Source of the DNA: Aliiroseovarius sp. PrR006
GTDB lineage: Bacteria > Pseudomonadota > Alphaproteobacteria > Rhodobacterales > Rhodobacteraceae
Assembly: GCF_010500215.1 (NCBI RefSeq)
Contig: NZ_JAAGOY010000007.1
Span: 558,001-622,000, forward strand
DNA: 64,000 bases
Reading direction: 5' to 3'
This document shows, one piece after another, positions 47,334 to 55,050 of the stretch. Position numbers and translations under genes: made by a program. The notes beneath the pieces were generated by a model. It saw only the letters and a program-made list of their open reading frames with translations, made no database searches and was not told where the DNA came from. How positions within the stretch are numbered: the first letter of the stretch is position 1; every line of letters begins with the position of its first letter.

Positions 47334-49376
47334 TTACAGGTCTTTCACCAACCGAAGCGCGTCATAAATGGCGGCATGCGTATTGCGTGCTGTCACCGCA
47401 TCGCCAATACGGAACAGTTGGAACTGCCCATCGGGATTGGTGTTGATGGTCTGCGGCCGGCCTTCGATCAGGGCGTTGTGATCCACTTCGCCCCGGTTCG
47501 ATGATTGCTCTTTCAGATCGAAATACAGATCATCCATCGGCATGGTGCCGTAGTTCACCACCACCTGATCATAGGTCGCCTGACGCGTAAACTCGGAATA
47601 GTCCGTGCCCAGCGTGACCATCAGGCGATTGCCCTCGCGCTGAATGTCCTTCAGGCGCTCGGTCACCGTAAAGCGCACGCCCTTAGGCTGCAGCGAGCGC
47701 ATATAGGGCACAAGGTTCATCGCCATGATGTCAGGGGCAAAGACACGGTCAGGGGTCATCACCTCGACATTCGCACCCGCTTCGGCTGCGATCTCGGCGG
47801 CTTGAAGCGCCGGATGGTCGCCGCTTTCGTCATAGATCAGCACATCGCCCGCACATTTCACGTCGCCTGCGATCACGTCCCACGCACTGACGGCCAGATC
47901 CTGCTCGCCCTTGGTCTCGAACAGCTCGAGGTTCGGCAGACCGCCGGTGGCGACAATCACCACGTCAGGGTTCAATGCGGTGAGGTCTGAGGCCTCGGCC
48001 CATGTGTTGAAATTGAAGGTCACGTCGCGCGCCGCGCATTGCGCCATGCGCCAGTCGATGATGCCGATCATCTCGCGCCGACGCGGAGTTTGCGCGGTCA
48101 GGCGCACCTGCCCACCGGGATCGGGCTGCGCTTCAAAGACAGTCACGTCATGGCCGCGCTCAGCAGCCACCCGTGCGGCCTCAAGCCCCGCAGGCCCAGC
48201 GCCCACGATCACCACCTTGCGGGGGGTGTCGGCAGCGGCGATCTCGTGCGGCATGGTCAGCTCGCGCCCAGTGGCCGCGTTGTGAACACACAGCGCATCA
48301 CCGGCCTGATAGATCCGGTCCAAACAATAGGTCGCACCGACACAGGGACGAATATCTTCTTCCCGCCCTTCGATGATTTTCTTCACGATATGCGGATCGG
48401 CCATATGCGCGCGCGTCATACCAACCATATCCAGCTGACCCGAAGCCACCGCATGGCGCGCGGTCGCGACATCTGGAATGCGGGCCGCATGGAAGGTGGG
48501 CATCCCGACCTCTTTGCGGACCCGGCCCGCAAAATCCAAGTGCGGAGACGCCGGCGCACCCTGAATGGGGATCATGTCGGTCATCGCCGGATCCGTATGA
48601 ATGCGACCCCGGTTGATGTTCAGGTAATCCACATGTCCGCAATCGCGCAGCATCCGGGCGATCTCCAATCCCATTTCGGGATCAATGCCGCCGGTTTCGA
48701 CCTCGTCCGGCGCAAAACGCACCCCCACGATGAACTCACTGCCCACACGGGCGCGCACGGCCTCGATAATGTCCAGCGTCAGCTTCATCCGCCCGGCCAG
48801 ATCGCCACCATAGGGACCGTCCAGCCGGTTGGTCAGGGGCGAAATGAACTGGTCCAGCAAATGCCCGTGGGTCATCACCTCGACCCCGTCCATGCCGCCC
48901 TCTTTCATCCGCTCAACCGCATCTGCGAAGTCCGAGATAATCCGCGAGATGTCCCAATCTTCGGCCATTTTGGGGAAGGCGCGGTGGGCGGGTTCACGGT
49001 GTGGCGTCGAACAGACAGGCGGCAACCAGTCGCCTTTGTTCCAACCGGTGCGCCGCCCCAGATGGGTCAGCTGGATCATGCACGCCGCACCATGTTCGTG
49101 CACCGCTTCCGTCAGCTGCCGGATCCACGGCACCACTTCATCTTTGTAGGCAAGGATGTTGTTAAAAACCGGCGGGCTGTCTTTCGACACGGCCGCAGAC
49201 CCCGCCGTCATGGTCATCGCCACACCCGCCTTGGCGCGCTCGGCGTGATAGGCCGCATAGCGCGCTTTCGGCATCCCGTCTTCGGGATAGGCCGGTTCAT
49301 GGCTCGTCGTCATGATCCGGTTTCTCAGGGTCAGATGCCCCAGTTGATAGGGCTGTAAAAGTGGATCGTTCGACAT
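47334..49376 (-). CDS. Trimethylamine-dehydrogenase/DgcA-like flavoprotein (Old Yellow Enzyme type)
   Basis: A 680-residue enzyme with an N-terminal FMN TIM barrel (residues ~1-340) and C-terminal NAD(P)/FAD-like domains (VVIVGAGPAGLEAARVA near 390). The layout is that of trimethylamine dehydrogenase and dimethylglycine demethylase DgcA, which oxidatively demethylate amines. VEVMTHGHLLDQFISP holds the active-site His. The Fe-S segment reads C345-VG-A348-TY-C351...C363: the usual second Cys is Ala. ATG 49376 has AAGGA six bases before it. Same strand as, and likely co-transcribed with, the MttB-like gene (97 bp upstream, with a repeat between). Confidence 0.85.
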   Translation of the reverse strand: MSNDPLLQPYQLGHLTLRNRIMTTSHEPAYPEDGMPKARYAAYHAERAKAGVAMTMTAGSAAVSKDSPPVFNNILAYKDEVVPWIRQLTEAVHEHGAACMIQLTHLGRRTGWNKGDWLPPVCSTPHREPAHRAFPKMAEDWDISRIISDFADAVERMKEGGMDGVEVMTHGHLLDQFISPLTNRLDGPYGGDLAGRMKLTLDIIEAVRARVGSEFIVGVRFAPDEVETGGIDPEMGLEIARMLRDCGHVDYLNINRGRIHTDPAMTDMIPIQGAPASPHLDFAGRVRKEVGMPTFHAARIPDVATARHAVASGQLDMVGMTRAHMADPHIVKKIIEGREEDIRPCVGATYCLDRIYQAGDALCVHNAATGRELTMPHEIAAADTPRKVVIVGAGPAGLEAARVAAERGHDVTVFEAQPDPGGQVRLTAQTPRRREMIGIIDWRMAQCAARDVTFNFNTWAEASDLTALNPDVVIVATGGLPNLELFETKGEQDLAVSAWDVIAGDVKCAGDVLIYDESGDHPALQAAEIAAEAGANVEVMTPDRVFAPDIMAMNLVPYMRSLQPKGVRFTVTERLKDIQREGNRLMVTLGTDYSEFTRQATYDQVVVNYGTMPMDDLYFDLKEQSSNRGEVDHNALIEGRPQTINTNPDGQFQLFRIGDAVTARNTHAAIYDALRLVKDL

Positions 49377-49410
49377 CATCCATCCTTCTCGACTTGGGGC
49401 ATTTCGCCCG

Positions 49411-49470
49411 CATTTTCTTGTCTCAAGTATCCTGGGGGAGCGTCGTAGACGCGGGGGCAAAGCCCCCTTC
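49411..49470 (-). repeat. Bipartite hairpin repeat, copy D
   Basis: On the minus strand right behind the MttB-like stop: GGGGGC-TTT-GCCCCC (49467-49453), then GCGTC-TAC-GACGC (49452-49440), then the core CCCAGGATACTTGAGACAAG and AAAATG. It could also act as a terminator between the two genes. Confidence 0.7.
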
Positions 49471-49473
49471 CCT

Positions 49474-51033
49474 TTAATACCAAGCGTCTTCCATCGAGGC
49501 TTTCTTGCGCGCGATAAAGTCCTGCAAAGCCTCGTCTTTGGCAACATCCAGAGCGGGTGCCTCATAGGCCGCAAGCTGCGCCTTCCAGCGCTGGTTTGCA
49601 CGGGTCGCCATGTCGATCTCTCCCTGCTCGTCCCATGTTTCCCACGGCTGGTTATCGTCCAGCGCACTGTCATAATACGCCGTCTTGTAGTGCCGCATCG
49701 TATGCGCGGTCGAAAACAGGTGCTCGCCCGGCCCTTGCTCGGCCAAGGCATCAAAGCCCAGCGTGTCCTCATTCACTTGCACGCCATCGTAGTAGGAATG
49801 CAGCGCTCCGCAGAGATCCAGATCAAGCATGAACTTCTCATAGGACATGGACAGAAGCCCATCCAGAAAGCCCGCCGAGTGCAGCAGATAGTTTGCGCCG
49901 CACTGCACTGCCGACATCATCGACATCATCGCCTGCTGCATCGCTTGCGCGTCCGGCAGTTTCGAAGTCGAGAAATTGCCAGCACAACGCAACGGCATAT
50001 TCAGGCGACGCGCCAACTGCCCAAAAACAAGGCTGCCCAGCGCTGGCTCCGCCGTCCCGAAGGTGGGCGATCCTGATCGTAGCGACATCGAACTGAGGAA
50101 GCTCGCCAAAATAGCCGGGGATCCCGGACGTTCCAACTGCGTAATCGCGCAAGACACCATGCTTTCGGCCAGACATTGCGCCGCCGATCCAGCAAGGGTC
50201 AGGGGCGACACGGCCCCACCCAGCAAGAAAGGAAGGTGAATGGATCCCTGCCCGGCCTTCGCATATTCGCGAATTCCCTGCGATGTGATGCCGTCAATCA
50301 CCAGCGGGCTGGTGGTGTTGAAATTGCCCATGATCACACAGTTCTGATCGACAAAATCGGCACCAAATAGAATGCGGCACATCTCGACGCTGTCGGCCGC
50401 GCGTTCGGGCGCAGTGACCGAGCCAAGGAACGGTCGATCAGAATAGCGCATATGGGCATAGACCATATCCAGATGCCGCTTGTTCACGGGGATATCTGTC
50501 GGTTCGCACACTGTCCCGCCGGAATGGTGCAGCCACGGGCTGGACTGCCCCAGCTTCACGAAGTTCTCGAAGTCCTCAAGCGTGCCATAGCGGCGCCCCT
50601 TATCCAGATCCATCACGAACGGGCTGCCATAGGACGGCGCGAAAACCACGTTGTCGCCGCCGATCTGAACCGTGTTGGCCGGGTTTCGGGCGTGCTGAGT
50701 GAATACGGCCGGAGCTGTCTGCAGGATCTCGCGGATCATGCCCGGCGCGAACTTGATGTTCCAGCGCGTGTCATCCAACTGCGTGACCTCGCCACCGGCC
50801 TTGCGGAACATCTCGACCGTTTCGGGGTCATCGCGAAACTCGATGCCGATCTCGGCCATGATGCGGTCGGCGGTCGCCTCGATCTGGCTTAGCGCCTCTT
50901 CCCCAAGAATGTCATAGGTGGGAATGCCCCGCTTGATATAGGGGCGCTCTAGATGCGGGTTCTGGCCGGGCGATCCGTCTCGTGCCTGCCGCTTTCCACG
51001 GCTACGCCGCCGTCCTGTGCTTAGCTCGCCCAT
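49474..51033 (-). CDS. MttB-family methyltransferase (non-pyrrolysine)
   Basis: A 519-residue member of the trimethylamine methyltransferase (MttB) superfamily, a TIM-barrel enzyme that in known cases moves a methyl group from a quaternary or tertiary amine to a corrinoid protein. The frame has no internal amber codon, so it is the non-pyrrolysine type like MtgB (glycine betaine). Conserved-looking segments are RPFLGSVTAPERAADSVEMC and GANYLLHSAGFLDGLLSMSY. ATG 51033 follows a perfect GGAGGAGG at five bases; upstream in-frame ATGs lack this. No corrinoid-protein gene lies nearby. Divergent from the TetR gene. Confidence 0.85.
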   Translation of the reverse strand: MGELSTGRRRSRGKRQARDGSPGQNPHLERPYIKRGIPTYDILGEEALSQIEATADRIMAEIGIEFRDDPETVEMFRKAGGEVTQLDDTRWNIKFAPGMIREILQTAPAVFTQHARNPANTVQIGGDNVVFAPSYGSPFVMDLDKGRRYGTLEDFENFVKLGQSSPWLHHSGGTVCEPTDIPVNKRHLDMVYAHMRYSDRPFLGSVTAPERAADSVEMCRILFGADFVDQNCVIMGNFNTTSPLVIDGITSQGIREYAKAGQGSIHLPFLLGGAVSPLTLAGSAAQCLAESMVSCAITQLERPGSPAILASFLSSMSLRSGSPTFGTAEPALGSLVFGQLARRLNMPLRCAGNFSTSKLPDAQAMQQAMMSMMSAVQCGANYLLHSAGFLDGLLSMSYEKFMLDLDLCGALHSYYDGVQVNEDTLGFDALAEQGPGEHLFSTAHTMRHYKTAYYDSALDDNQPWETWDEQGEIDMATRANQRWKAQLAAYEAPALDVAKDEALQDFIARKKASMEDAWY

Positions 51034-51083
51034 CACATCCTCCTCCGTCATGAGTCGCATAGTTGACACAGGTGACGACTGAT

Positions 51084-51099
51084 TTGACACATGTGTCAA
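51084..51099. promoter_or_regulatory. Perfect palindromic operator between the MttB-like and TetR genes
   Basis: TTGACACATGTGTCAA is a perfect 16-bp palindrome. AGGTGAC (51070-51076) and GTCACCT (51100-51106) form a further inverted pair around it, and TTGACACAGGTGAC (51063-51076) resembles one half plus flank. This is what an operator for the adjacent TetR protein would look like. Confidence 0.7.
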
Positions 51100-51111
51100 G
51101 TCACCTATGAT
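51084..51111 (+). promoter_or_regulatory. Predicted tetR promoter overlapping the operator
   Basis: TTGACA (51084-51089) and TATGAT (51106-51111) are 16 bp apart. The -35 lies in the left arm of the palindrome. Transcription would begin near 51118-51120, that is, at or next to the ATG, so the message may be leaderless. Bound TetR would block RNA polymerase. Confidence 0.55.
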
Positions 51112-51119
51112 GCACGACT

Positions 51120-51737
51120 ATGACCAAAAACGACATACAGCGCCCGCGCGCCTCGGAAACCATGTGGCTTGACGCTGCGCTTGAACTGCTGATCACGGCT
51201 GGTGTGGACGGAGTGAAGATCATGCCGCTGGCCACCCAGCTTGGCCTGACGCGCACCGGGTTCTATCACCACTTCCGCGACCGCGAGGCGCTGCTGGATG
51301 CCATGATCAAACGGTGGGAGGACAAGAACACGGGTAATCTGGTCGCCCAATGTGCGCTTTACGCCGAGACCATCTGCGAGGCGATGTTCAACCTTCAAGA
51401 CTGCTGGTTTCAGAAAGACCTGTTCGACGCGCAGCTTGACCGCGCGATCCGGAACTGGGCCGACCATGATGCCGACCTGAAACGCCGGGTCGATGACGCC
51501 GACGCACAGCGTAAAACGGCCATCAAATCCATGTTCGAACGCTACGGCTATGTCGCTGACGACGCCGAAGTGCGAACCATGGCCATCCTTTATACGCAGG
51601 TCGGGTATATCGCGATGGAGATCAAAGAAGAGCCCACGGGCCGGATCGACCGCGTGCCGCGTTATGTCGAGCTTTTCACCGGTCAAACACCGTCAGAAAG
51701 CGAGATCCGGCGTTTTCGCGCCCGGAACGGATATTGA
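51120..51737 (+). CDS. TetR/AcrR-family transcriptional regulator
   Basis: A 205-residue one-component regulator. The helix-turn-helix is TAGVDGVKIMPLATQLGLTR followed by GFYHHFRDREALLDAMI, the classic TetR N-terminus; the ligand domain fills the rest. It has no Shine-Dalgarno before ATG 51120, in line with a leaderless start. It sits between the MttB-like and dehalogenase genes and probably controls both directions from the palindrome at 51084-51099. Confidence 0.92.
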   Translation: MTKNDIQRPRASETMWLDAALELLITAGVDGVKIMPLATQLGLTRTGFYHHFRDREALLDAMIKRWEDKNTGNLVAQCALYAETICEAMFNLQDCWFQKDLFDAQLDRAIRNWADHDADLKRRVDDADAQRKTAIKSMFERYGYVADDAEVRTMAILYTQVGYIAMEIKEEPTGRIDRVPRYVELFTGQTPSESEIRRFRARNGY

Positions 51738-51852: not shown

Positions 51853-54800
51853 ATGCGCTTGTTTTCGACCCGCAATCGGCCTGTGGATCTGGGCCCCTAC
51901 CCGCTTGAACGCCTGAGCCGTTGCGACACGGCCGCAGGATTGGATCTGGTTGCCCCGGACCCGCATCTGTCATTTGACCGGCCAGATCGGCCGGAAAGCC
52001 TTGTGAACGCGATGGCCCCCTATCAGGCCGCGCTGGACGCGATCCGGGACGGAGAGGTCAATCCAACTCGCTCGTCCATTCCGGATGATCCGGACGAACG
52101 CGCCCGGCACCTGAAGGCCTTTGGCTATTTCTCGGATGCGTCGATGGTTGGTATCACCCGATTGGACGCTGACGCTCTGCGAGACACCCCAACCGAAAAC
52201 CCGGGCATTCAAGATCTGGTCAGCGCCCTTAGCACGCGCGAGGTGCGAACACTGGCTGCTGGGATCGACACGCTGATGGCCGAGTTGAAAGAGAGCCTGT
52301 CTTCTGGCATTCGCCCCGTGTCGGGCCACACCCACGCGATTGTTTTCCTCTATGAACACCACCGTACGCCCCGTGCGGACGAGCCTGGCGCCGACTGGAT
52401 CACGGACGCGCAGGACCACCGCGCCTGTCTGTTGTCCTCGGAAACGGCCATCGTGATCGCGAACTATCTGCGACTTTTGGGGTATGACGCAAAGGCCCAT
52501 ACGGGGGCTGCCAGCGATGTCTGGATGTCGCGGCTTGCCACGCAAGCTGGGCTGGCATGGGCAACCCCGGATGGACTGCGCGCGCCTTGGATTGGGAACC
52601 AGTTCGGCATCGCCGTCGTCACCACAGATCTCGACATCACACCCGACCGCCCTCTTGCCCCTGAGACTGAGCAACCGAACCTGACCGGGCTACGGTGGAA
52701 GCTGGGCATGGGCAGCGCCAAATCCGGCCTGAACCTCGACCCTTATGCACGTCGCGACTATGCCCAAGGCCCGCTGCCCTTCGAGCGATTGAAACGGGTC
52801 GACCAGCCCACATCCTATATCGACGAAGAAAACGTCGCTCGTGTGCCGAAACGGTCCGACATGTTCGCCCGTGCGCAGTTCGGCGACATGGGTAAACACC
52901 TGCACGAGAGTTCCTCGGGCGGGATGTATGTGCGCAAGGCCGCCCCCAGCTATGCCCAGCGCCGCGCGCTTGGGGTATTCACCCCGTTGCAAGATGGCCC
53001 GGTGGCGAAGGGTGCGCGACCGACAGACGCGGAAAACAACGCCGCTGCGCTGCGCGCCGCCAGCTATTTCCTTGGGATCGACGCCGCTGGCACCAGCCGC
53101 TGCCCGGACTGGGTCTGGTATAGCCACGACGCCACCGGTGCCGAAATCGTGCCGACCCACGACAACGCCATTTCTATGATCGTGGATCAGGGCTTTGAAA
53201 CGATGGAGGGCGCGTCCGGCGACGACTGGATCGCGGTCAGCCAATCCATGCGCGCCTATCTGCGGTTTTCCCTGATCGGCGGCGTCATCGCGCAGCAGAT
53301 TCGCAACCTTGGTTACTCGGCCAAGGCCCATACGGTGATGGATGGTACGGTGCTGCAGCCACCGCTGCTGCTTCTCGCCGGATTGGGCGAAATCAGCCGG
53401 ATTGGCGAAGTCATCCTGCACCCGCTTCTGGGCCCGCGCCTGAAGTCTGGCGCGGTGACGACGGATATGCCTCTGGCCCATGACAAACCGATTGATTTCG
53501 GTTTGCAGCGTTTTTGCGAAAGCTGCAACAAATGCGCGCGGGAGTGCCCATCGGGCGCGATTACGGCCGGGCCGAAGAAGATGTTCAACGGCTACGAGAT
53601 CTGGAAATCAGACAGCCAGAAATGCACCACCTATCGCGTGACCCAGCCGGGCGGCGCGATGTGTGGACGCTGCATGAAAACCTGCCCATGGAACCTTGAG
53701 GGGCTGTTCGCGCAGACGCCATTCCGCTGGGCGGCCTCGAACCTTCCCGGCGCGGCGCCGGTCTTGGCGAAGCTCGATGATGCCGTCGGCAATGGTGGCC
53801 TGAACGAAGTCAAGAAATGGTGGTGGGATTTGGAGCTTGGGCCGGATGGCGGATACCACGCACCCAAGCAGCCCACGAACCGCCGCGACCTCCAGCGCGA
53901 GATTGACCTGAAGCCCGAGGATCAGACCCTCGCCACCTATCCCGCGCCGCTGGCCCCGCCGCCCTATCCCTATCCGTTCCCGATGGATCGCGAGGCCGGG
54001 ATTGCGGCCTATGACGCGATGATCTCGGCCAAGGAATATCGAGACCGGAAAGCACGTGGGGATCTATCGATGATCCACACGTATTTCGTGCCACAAGACA
54101 GTCCCGTGCTTCAGCTGACCCTGTCGAAGGTCGAAAAGATGACCGCCGGCGTCACGAAATACGAACTGTCCACGTTGGATGGGTCCGAGCTGCCTGCATG
54201 GACCGCTGGGGCGCATCTGGATGTGCTCGTCTCGCCCGATTTCCTGCGTCAGTATTCGATGTCCGGCAACCCCGCCGACCGCAGCACCTATCAGATCGGC
54301 GTGTTGCGCGAAGACGAGGGGCGTGGCGGATCGGCCTTGTTGCACCGGATCTTCACCGAGGGGCGCAAGGTGTTTGTGTCAAAGCCCATCAACCATTTTG
54401 AACTGGTCGAGGATGCCTCCAAGACCTTCCTGATGGGTGGCGGCATCGGCATTACCCCGATGATCGCCTTCGCACATCGTCTGCACGCCATCGGCGCGGA
54501 TTTCGCGCTGCATTACTCGGCCAGCAGTCGGAAAGATGCAGGGTATCTGGATGACTTGGCCGCGATGCCATGGGCGGACCGCGTGCACCTGCATTTCTCG
54601 GACGAAGGCACCCGCGCGGATTTCGATGTCGTGTTCTCAGACGCCCCAGATGGCACCCATGTCTATGCCTGCGGCGCGGATCGCTACATGGATGCGGTGA
54701 TGCAGGCAGCCGAGCGTCAAGGCATCCCCGAGGACGCGCGGCATCTGGAATATTTCAGCGTGCCCGAGCAGCCCGATTACGAAAACCACCCCTTCACGCT

Positions 54801-55050
54801 GCGCCTGAAAGACGGCCGCAGGATCGCGGTCTCGGAAGATCAAACGGCAGCAGATGCGCTGAACGAGGCTGGGTTCCATGTGGATGTGAAATGCTCGGAC
54901 GGGATCTGTGGCGTGTGCAAATGCGGGGTGCTGTCAGGCGACGTCGAACACCGCGATTTCGTCCTGTCCAACGCCCAGCGCGAGGGCGCGATGATCCTGT
55001 GCCAAAGCCGCGCGAAAGACCCGGATGGAGAGATCGCTCTAGACCTCTAA
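51853..55050 (+). CDS. rdhA: Self-sufficient reductive dehalogenase (RdhA fused to FMN reductase and ferredoxin domain)
   Basis: A 1065-residue fusion. Residues ~1-550 form the corrinoid-binding RdhA core. Two [4Fe-4S] motifs follow: C555-x2-C-x2-C-x3-C565-P and C591-x12-C604-x2-C607-x3-C611-P, the RdhA pattern. From ~740 comes a phthalate-dioxygenase-reductase-like part with RQYSMSG (flavin) and GGIGITPMIAF (NAD), and a plant-type 2Fe-2S domain with C1014-x4-C1019-x2-C1022-x27-C1050. No Tat signal and no rdhB are present, so it is a cytoplasmic catabolic type like BhbA of Comamonas, which removes halogens from haloaromatics with NAD(P)H. The substrate here is unknown. ATG 51853 lies 115 bp behind tetR. 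Confidence 0.93.
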   Translation: MRLFSTRNRPVDLGPYPLERLSRCDTAAGLDLVAPDPHLSFDRPDRPESLVNAMAPYQAALDAIRDGEVNPTRSSIPDDPDERARHLKAFGYFSDASMVGITRLDADALRDTPTENPGIQDLVSALSTREVRTLAAGIDTLMAELKESLSSGIRPVSGHTHAIVFLYEHHRTPRADEPGADWITDAQDHRACLLSSETAIVIANYLRLLGYDAKAHTGAASDVWMSRLATQAGLAWATPDGLRAPWIGNQFGIAVVTTDLDITPDRPLAPETEQPNLTGLRWKLGMGSAKSGLNLDPYARRDYAQGPLPFERLKRVDQPTSYIDEENVARVPKRSDMFARAQFGDMGKHLHESSSGGMYVRKAAPSYAQRRALGVFTPLQDGPVAKGARPTDAENNAAALRAASYFLGIDAAGTSRCPDWVWYSHDATGAEIVPTHDNAISMIVDQGFETMEGASGDDWIAVSQSMRAYLRFSLIGGVIAQQIRNLGYSAKAHTVMDGTVLQPPLLLLAGLGEISRIGEVILHPLLGPRLKSGAVTTDMPLAHDKPIDFGLQRFCESCNKCARECPSGAITAGPKKMFNGYEIWKSDSQKCTTYRVTQPGGAMCGRCMKTCPWNLEGLFAQTPFRWAASNLPGAAPVLAKLDDAVGNGGLNEVKKWWWDLELGPDGGYHAPKQPTNRRDLQREIDLKPEDQTLATYPAPLAPPPYPYPFPMDREAGIAAYDAMISAKEYRDRKARGDLSMIHTYFVPQDSPVLQLTLSKVEKMTAGVTKYELSTLDGSELPAWTAGAHLDVLVSPDFLRQYSMSGNPADRSTYQIGVLREDEGRGGSALLHRIFTEGRKVFVSKPINHFELVEDASKTFLMGGGIGITPMIAFAHRLHAIGADFALHYSASSRKDAGYLDDLAAMPWADRVHLHFSDEGTRADFDVVFSDAPDGTHVYACGADRYMDAVMQAAERQGIPEDARHLEYFSVPEQPDYENHPFTLRLKDGRRIAVSEDQTAADALNEAGFHVDVKCSDGICGVCKCGVLSGDVEHRDFVLSNAQREGAMILCQSRAKDPDGEIALDL

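Follow-up and report, generated by a model that had tools for sequence, protein, structure and literature searches.

A self-sufficient reductive dehalogenase fusion in Aliiroseovarius sp. PrR006 and its possible role in the catabolism of sulfated marine bromophenols

Results

A reductive dehalogenase fusion encoded in a single open frame

The stretch of DNA analysed here (the window) comprises 64,000 nucleotides of the roseobacter Aliiroseovarius sp. PrR006 (assembly GCF_010500215.1, contig NZ_JAAGOY010000007.1, positions 558,001 to 622,000). On the plus strand, positions 51853-55050 of the window form a single open frame of 1065 amino acids with an ATG start, which profile matches, the structure match to 2PIA, its likeness to BhbA and its predicted fold identify as a self-sufficient reductive dehalogenase (RdhA) fusion. 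A chance frame is ruled out because full-length relatives, sharing about 51-94% identity, occur in many genomes.

The functional RdhA core, with its corrinoid site and two [4Fe-4S] clusters, spans residues 426-646 (53128-53790, plus strand), where the RdhA profile, TIGR02486, reaches 212.6 bits (cut-off 160.35). Both Fer4 motifs (C555/C558/C561/C565 and C591/C604/C607/C611; 53515-53685, plus strand) are intact, and all eight cysteines are retained in an alignment to NpRdhA from Nitratireductor pacificus. The same profile matches the N-terminal half of the protein a second time, below its cut-off at 43.4 bits (52087-52656, plus strand; 610087-610656 in our numbering of the contig, C7). This degenerate copy of the core, combined with the fold match to NpRdhA, marks a vestigial duplication of the cobalamin-binding domain, a feature described for catabolic RdhAs (PMC10463259). 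The C-terminal residues 746-1065 match the flavin- and NAD-dependent phthalate dioxygenase reductase type (2PIA, 175 bits); the flavin/NAD(P)H reductase part, also evident in the fold, occupies 54118-54762 and is followed on the same strand by a [2Fe-2S] ferredoxin domain at 54814-55017 (Fer2, PF00111; residues 988-1055), whose cysteines 1014, 1019, 1022 and 1050 are retained in BhbA and in three other relatives.

The N-terminus, MRLFSTRNRPVDLG..., shows neither a twin-arginine motif nor a hydrophobic stretch when read by eye rather than by a signal-peptide program. The gaps flanking the gene, 115 nt to the preceding TetR gene and 20 nt to the next, convergent frame, are too small to accommodate rdhB directly beside it. 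The protein thus lacks, on these grounds, both the twin-arginine translocation (Tat) signal and the rdhB anchor gene that characterize the respiratory PceA type. A preliminary description of the window, made from the sequence alone, had already recognized a signal-less single-chain fusion of 1065 residues without rdhB, uniting two [4Fe-4S] motifs, a flavin/NAD reductase and a 2Fe-2S domain, and the profile and structure matches agree with that account. A cobN gene scoring over its cut-off makes B12 supply plausible in this genome.

Fold, active site and nearest characterized enzymes

By sequence, the best solved relative is NpRdhA (4RAS, 6ZXU; 537 bits), with 52% identity across 287 aligned positions of the core and 33% in the N-terminal half. 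The AlphaFold model built from a 49-sequence alignment reached a mean predicted local distance difference test (pLDDT) score of 79, and its top PDB matches are all NpRdhA, with template modelling (TM) scores of 0.85-0.86 by target length; an earlier model from 15 sequences (pLDDT 63, weak core) was set aside. NpRdhA has no fused reductase, whereas the window protein carries one. Six residues that PMC10463259 names as common to NpRdhA and JtRdhA (F291, S422, M423, Y426, K488 and R552 in NpRdhA) are present as F338, S465, M466, Y469, K531 and R595. The catalytic tyrosine, lysine and arginine (Y469, 53257-53259; K531, 53443-53445; R595, 53635-53637; plus strand), whose retention the preliminary description had wished to see checked by structure prediction and alignment to NpRdhA and BhbA, are therefore kept; the roles of Y426, K488, R552 and S422 in NpRdhA are taken from PMC7565698.

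BhbA of Comamonas sp. 7D-2 (plasmid pBHB, NC_021077) aligns over 100% of the length at 49% identity with the same domain order, and has the catalytic residues in common with the window protein, as well as each of the 12 Fe-S cysteines. This identity, the NpRdhA fold and the kept catalytic residues support assignment to the catabolic BhbA type rather than to the respiratory type. The genetic settings of the two differ, bhbA being carried by an IncP plasmid, close to an IS3 element, and the window gene by a 1.1-Mb contig in genus-level synteny. The pockets differ too: BhbA has F, S, S and A where the window protein has M337, Y359, V462 and V495, four residues that are also altered relative to NpRdhA. 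A relative from Ruegeria TM1040 matches the window protein at all four of these positions and one from Jannaschia at three. Since these sites are unlike BhbA and like the marine relatives, the marine substrate may differ from the bromoxynil products.

A closely comparable enzyme is JtRdhA of the roseobacter Jhaorihella thermophila (Fisher et al. 2023, PMC10463259), likewise described as a full-length fusion of RdhA with a phthalate dioxygenase reductase and as free of a Tat signal; the likeness is drawn from the published residue list and description. JtRdhA is reported to use NADPH to remove bromine and iodine from ortho-halophenols, in air too, and to be inhibited by the chlorinated analogues with no dechlorination (PMC10463259). 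Bromo- and iodophenols are therefore likelier substrates than the chlorophenols that the preliminary description had put forward beside bromophenols. A further marine Roseobacter debrominase was expressed in 2026, in an account that calls putative bhbA homologues widespread in the clade and suggests that such enzymes take a general part in the turnover of bromophenols in the sea (PMC13101508).

Given its architecture, fold and conserved residues, we consider it very probable that the window protein belongs to the BhbA/JtRdhA kind of B12-dependent reductive dehalogenases, cytosolic and tolerant of oxygen; the reaction, the use of NADPH and the halide preference are assigned by analogy with JtRdhA. 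Electrons from NAD(P)H would reach the two [4Fe-4S] clusters by way of flavin and the [2Fe-2S] cluster and go on to cobalamin, which would strip a halide (in all likelihood bromide or iodide) from the position ortho to a free phenolic hydroxyl; S465, K531 and R595 would bind that hydroxyl and Y469 would donate the proton. The kind of enzyme is already known from print, and the window protein adds a further member.

Distribution of rdhA

We searched 394 genomes of the Rhodobacteraceae, one per genus except for two of Aliiroseovarius, with E-value cut-offs each set once (RdhA 1e-100, arylsulfatase 1e-120, alkylsulfatase 1e-90, old yellow enzyme 1e-180, dimethylsulfoniopropionate (DMSP) lyase 0.001). 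RdhA was found in 152 of them, and such frequency, together with the published record, does not bear out the earlier impression of an oddity in an otherwise housekeeping roseobacter chromosome. Within Aliiroseovarius, 20 of 21 genomes hold rdhA whole or in part: 18 at full length, one in two pieces and one as fragments in a genome that is 56% complete. The sole member without it is G008. In one draft genome (G009, locus L129) both rdhA and the sulfatase upstream of it are each split into two frames, through either mutation or an error of assembly. In Ruegeria TM1040, Tritonibacter, Jannaschia and Yoonia (loci L219 and L220 among these) the gene lies on plasmids or megaplasmids.

An arylsulfatase associated with rdhA

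At 10 of 19 Aliiroseovarius loci the gene immediately upstream of rdhA encodes a sulfatase, lies on the same strand and abuts rdhA or nearly so; eight of these copies are full length, one is truncated (L123) and one is the broken copy of L129. No such gene stands at this position in the window or at L112-L117, L120 and L121. In all three genomes tested (G018, G005 and G012) of the eight others without an adjacent copy, a sulfatase is encoded elsewhere, as it is in the window genome. G008, which lacks rdhA, also lacks a sulfatase of this kind at 1e-60. The rdhA-linked protein matches PF00884 and contains a CGASR stretch, which fits the sulfatase motif form C-x-[AP]-x-R. Among solved structures, the closest is that of SpAS2 from Ruegeria (Silicibacter) pomeroyi (4UPL, 784 bits); genes of this SpAS2-like kind are linked to rdhA in relatives, with no copy inside the window itself. 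For SpAS2, p-nitrophenyl sulfate gives the highest of three tabulated values (PMC12421950).

The association extends across the family. Of the 184 genomes with the arylsulfatase, 114 hold RdhA, compared with 38 of the 210 without it (Fisher's exact test, 2e-19), and all 21 genomes that hold a companion SdsA-like alkylsulfatase also hold RdhA (21/394; 8e-10). As a control for marine habitat we chose a DMSP-lyase profile (167 of its 189 matches over the family cut-off), which is not associated with RdhA (76/189 genomes with the lyase, 76/205 without); the link between RdhA and the arylsulfatase persists in both lyase classes, with odds ratios of 8.5 and 7.0. Outside the genus, among the matches listed (150 for RdhA, covering 149 of its 152 genomes, and 150 for the sulfatase, covering 143 of its 184, with the two genus members excluded), rdhA and the arylsulfatase lie no more than 10 kb apart in 6 of the 88 genomes with both, where uniform placement in a 3.9-Mb genome predicts 0.49; the sulfatase is upstream of rdhA in five of the six. 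In a further genome, G101, a sulfatase matches some 8 kb ahead of rdhA; it was not among the listed matches and stands outside this count. Among 80 named loci, nine show a sulfatase: five from Aliiroseovarius, one from HIMB11 (L194), L189 (directly upstream), L198 and L202.

Clustering of the neighbours at 60 loci of other genera, hand-picked from the family rdhA search, yielded no sulfatase among the 45 clusters listed, the largest non-RdhA clusters covering 5 of the 60 loci; this sample, drawn from beyond the genus, holds few linked copies, which explains the absence.

Pathway genes at rdhA and sulfatase loci

One locus (L225, genome G398) brings rdhA together with genes for both ends of a possible route, in the order LigA, LigB, a Gfo/Idh protein, arylsulfatase, metallo-β-lactamase (MBL)-fold alkylsulfatase, short-chain dehydrogenase/reductase (SDR), RdhA, PIG-L, LigK, 4-oxalomesaconate tautomerase and amidohydrolase. 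LigA, LigB, LigK and the tautomerase all score over their NCBIfam cut-offs; the SDR falls slightly under that of the coniferyl-alcohol dehydrogenase model (227.9 against 242), and the amidohydrolase and the Gfo/Idh protein fall under every NCBIfam cut-off. The MBL-fold protein has an alkyl-sulfatase dimerization domain and matches the YjcS and SdsA1 structures, and in 7 of the 21 genomes with such an alkylsulfatase the matches to the two sulfatases are no more than about 35 nt apart. In HIMB11 (L076, genome G196), arylsulfatase, alkylsulfatase, a tripartite ATP-independent periplasmic (TRAP) importer, SDR and RdhA stand in a row, and TRAP importers like this one lie near sulfatases at L244, L246, L247 and L257, with a more distant one at L250. 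Across genera, arylsulfatase, alkylsulfatase and TRAP genes recur together at L076 and these four close matches, some with an IclR or SDR gene, and at four of the five the sulfatase row and rdhA are on separate contigs or far apart.

Downstream functions also appear elsewhere. Homologues of PIG-L, LigK and the tautomerase follow RdhA at two Oricola loci, rdhA of Nitratireductor OM-1 adjoins pobA and an extradiol dioxygenase gene, and beside bhbA stand 4,5-protocatechuate dioxygenase genes (LigA and a class III extradiol dioxygenase). At the 60 loci of other genera, LigA, LigB, LigK and the tautomerase were found in none, so that lower-pathway genes at rdhA are the exception. In the window genome HmgA scores over its cut-off and would suit a tyrosine-like product; nothing ties it to rdhA.

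Discussion

A possible role in the use of sulfated bromophenols

Sulfated bromophenols are products of red algae. One of the major metabolites in the extract of Vertebrata lanosa is lanosol-4,7-disulfate, and 3,5-dibromotyrosine and a sulfo-bromo-DOPA (3,4-dihydroxyphenylalanine) compound are obtained from the same source (PMC9322897). An aryl sulfate would block the hydroxyl that S422, K488 and R552 bind in NpRdhA, and desulfation should for that reason precede debromination. A TRAP importer would take up the sulfated compound, whereupon the SpAS2-like arylsulfatase would cut the aryl sulfate to free the hydroxyl and, in some relatives, the SdsA-like alkylsulfatase would cut the benzylic sulfate. 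The 7-O-sulfate of lanosol would suit this second sulfatase, and the benzyl alcohol so formed would suit the SDR, which would oxidize it. RdhA would debrominate the compound once its phenolic hydroxyl is free, and the ring would enter a dioxygenase route by protocatechuate 4,5-cleavage. Lineages like that of the window would retain RdhA, with the arylsulfatase encoded at an unlinked site.

Co-occurrence and linkage in relatives lead us to lean slightly towards catabolism of sulfated bromophenols from marine algae as the physiological role of the enzyme. When the enzyme class and reaction are taken jointly with this role, we hold the combined reading with moderate confidence. The fuller proposal, in which the RdhAs of marine Rhodobacteraceae serve a desulfate-then-debrominate pathway for lanosol-type sulfates including the TRAP importer, the SDR and 4,5-cleavage, is more tentative and falls a little short of an even chance.

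Several observations weigh against this interpretation. Of 12 NpRdhA active-site positions compared, six are kept in the window protein and six altered (290, 307, 310, 311, 419 and 452). The closest sulfatase relative in the window genome lies 190 kb from rdhA (C7:802912-804528), and no SdsA-like alkylsulfatase was found in that genome at 1e-90; the case for the role is accordingly weaker for the window's own strain. PobA scores below its cut-off in the same genome, in a search that did not extend to LigAB. Across the family, 38 of the 152 RdhA genomes lack an SpAS2-like arylsulfatase at the cut-off. At the 60 loci of other genera, a sulfatase with at least 45% identity over half its length lies within about 8 kb of rdhA at one locus, and two further loci show a cut-off and a weak sulfatase match; with so few, most RdhA loci must be regarded as having no linked sulfatase. 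The 394 genomes share ancestry, moreover, and the statistics take no account of the species tree. Finally, a single RdhA may not finish lanosol, because just one of its bromines stands ortho to a hydroxyl, while the other stands para.

Much of this would also be compatible with a general function in debromination or detoxification of any free ortho-halophenol or halotyrosine in seawater, the link to sulfatases then reflecting shared lifestyle or ancestry. The breadth of substrates of JtRdhA (PMC10463259, Table 1), the RdhA genomes without a sulfatase and the failure of any neighbour to recur at more than 5 of the 60 loci speak for such a function, which we regard as a serious though minority possibility. 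Shared lifestyle or ancestry does not readily account for linkage outside the genus at about 12 times the expected level among the matches listed, for tight adjacency within the genus, for the presence of RdhA in every genome with the alkylsulfatase or for the lack of association with the DMSP-lyase habitat control. That the protein is no dehalogenase, but a reductase of the RdhA/QueG superfamily with another reaction, is most improbable. What speaks for it is a weak match to the QueG profile TIGR00276, which at 26.1 bits stays far below the required 200; against it, the catalytic and hydroxyl-binding residues of NpRdhA are kept, and BhbA, a debrominase, and JtRdhA are its close characterized kin.

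What is new, with the sulfated-bromophenol role preferred here, is a lead to the natural function of these enzymes, namely their association with a specific arylsulfatase and alkylsulfatase. The consulted portions of the published accounts name no native pathway for this kind of enzyme, and among the listed titles and abstract openings of open-licence papers we found none that joins dehalogenation or bromophenols with sulfatases in aerobic marine bacteria; single-cell genomes of Desulfatiglans hold both sulfatases and reductive dehalogenases, which are treated separately in the account concerned, so far as consulted (PMC6129605). The sulfatase association turns the natural role into a testable pathway that, if true, would link the marine cycling of bromine, sulfur and carbon and would help to explain why rdhA is so common in these aerobic bacteria.

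Neighbouring genes and further observations

The sulfatase at C7:802912-804528 (L243) is the only arylsulfatase of the SpAS2-like kind in the window genome at 1e-120, and within about 8 kb of it none of the pathway genes of our library was recognized. Farther along, a weak match to a reductive dehalogenase profile (C7:817263-817607, L003) lies in a 412-aa frame that may be the genome's own QueG.

Upstream of rdhA in the window lie an old yellow enzyme (OYE)-type NADH:flavin oxidoreductase (47334-49379, minus strand; PF00724), an MTTB-family methyltransferase (49474-51048, minus strand; PF06253, 707.6 bits) and a TetR regulator (51120-51737, plus strand; PF00440). Their proximity to rdhA in 13 of 19 genus loci, the window included, might suggest that all four proteins share a substrate, such as a halogenated quaternary amine, and we considered the three as functional partners of RdhA. 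We reject this and hold a common substrate to be highly unlikely: the trio is missing from the surroundings of rdhA at the remaining six genus loci and appears at none of the 60 loci of other genera, where MTTB homologues (33-54% identity) occur at four; RdhA is found in 76 of 209 genomes with OYE and 76 of 185 without; and outside the genus OYE lies within 10 kb of rdhA in 0 of 58 cases among the matches listed, 0.3 being expected. G008 retains the trio without rdhA, its TetR gene standing about 39 bp from the next gene (L222, 5792-5831). Because it is absent beside rdhA at six genus loci and stays with MTTB and OYE in G008, we judge the TetR regulator to belong to the MTTB/OYE genes and not to rdhA. 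The region 47334-51737, MTTB and OYE with a divergent TetR, is a separable module at this chromosomal site.

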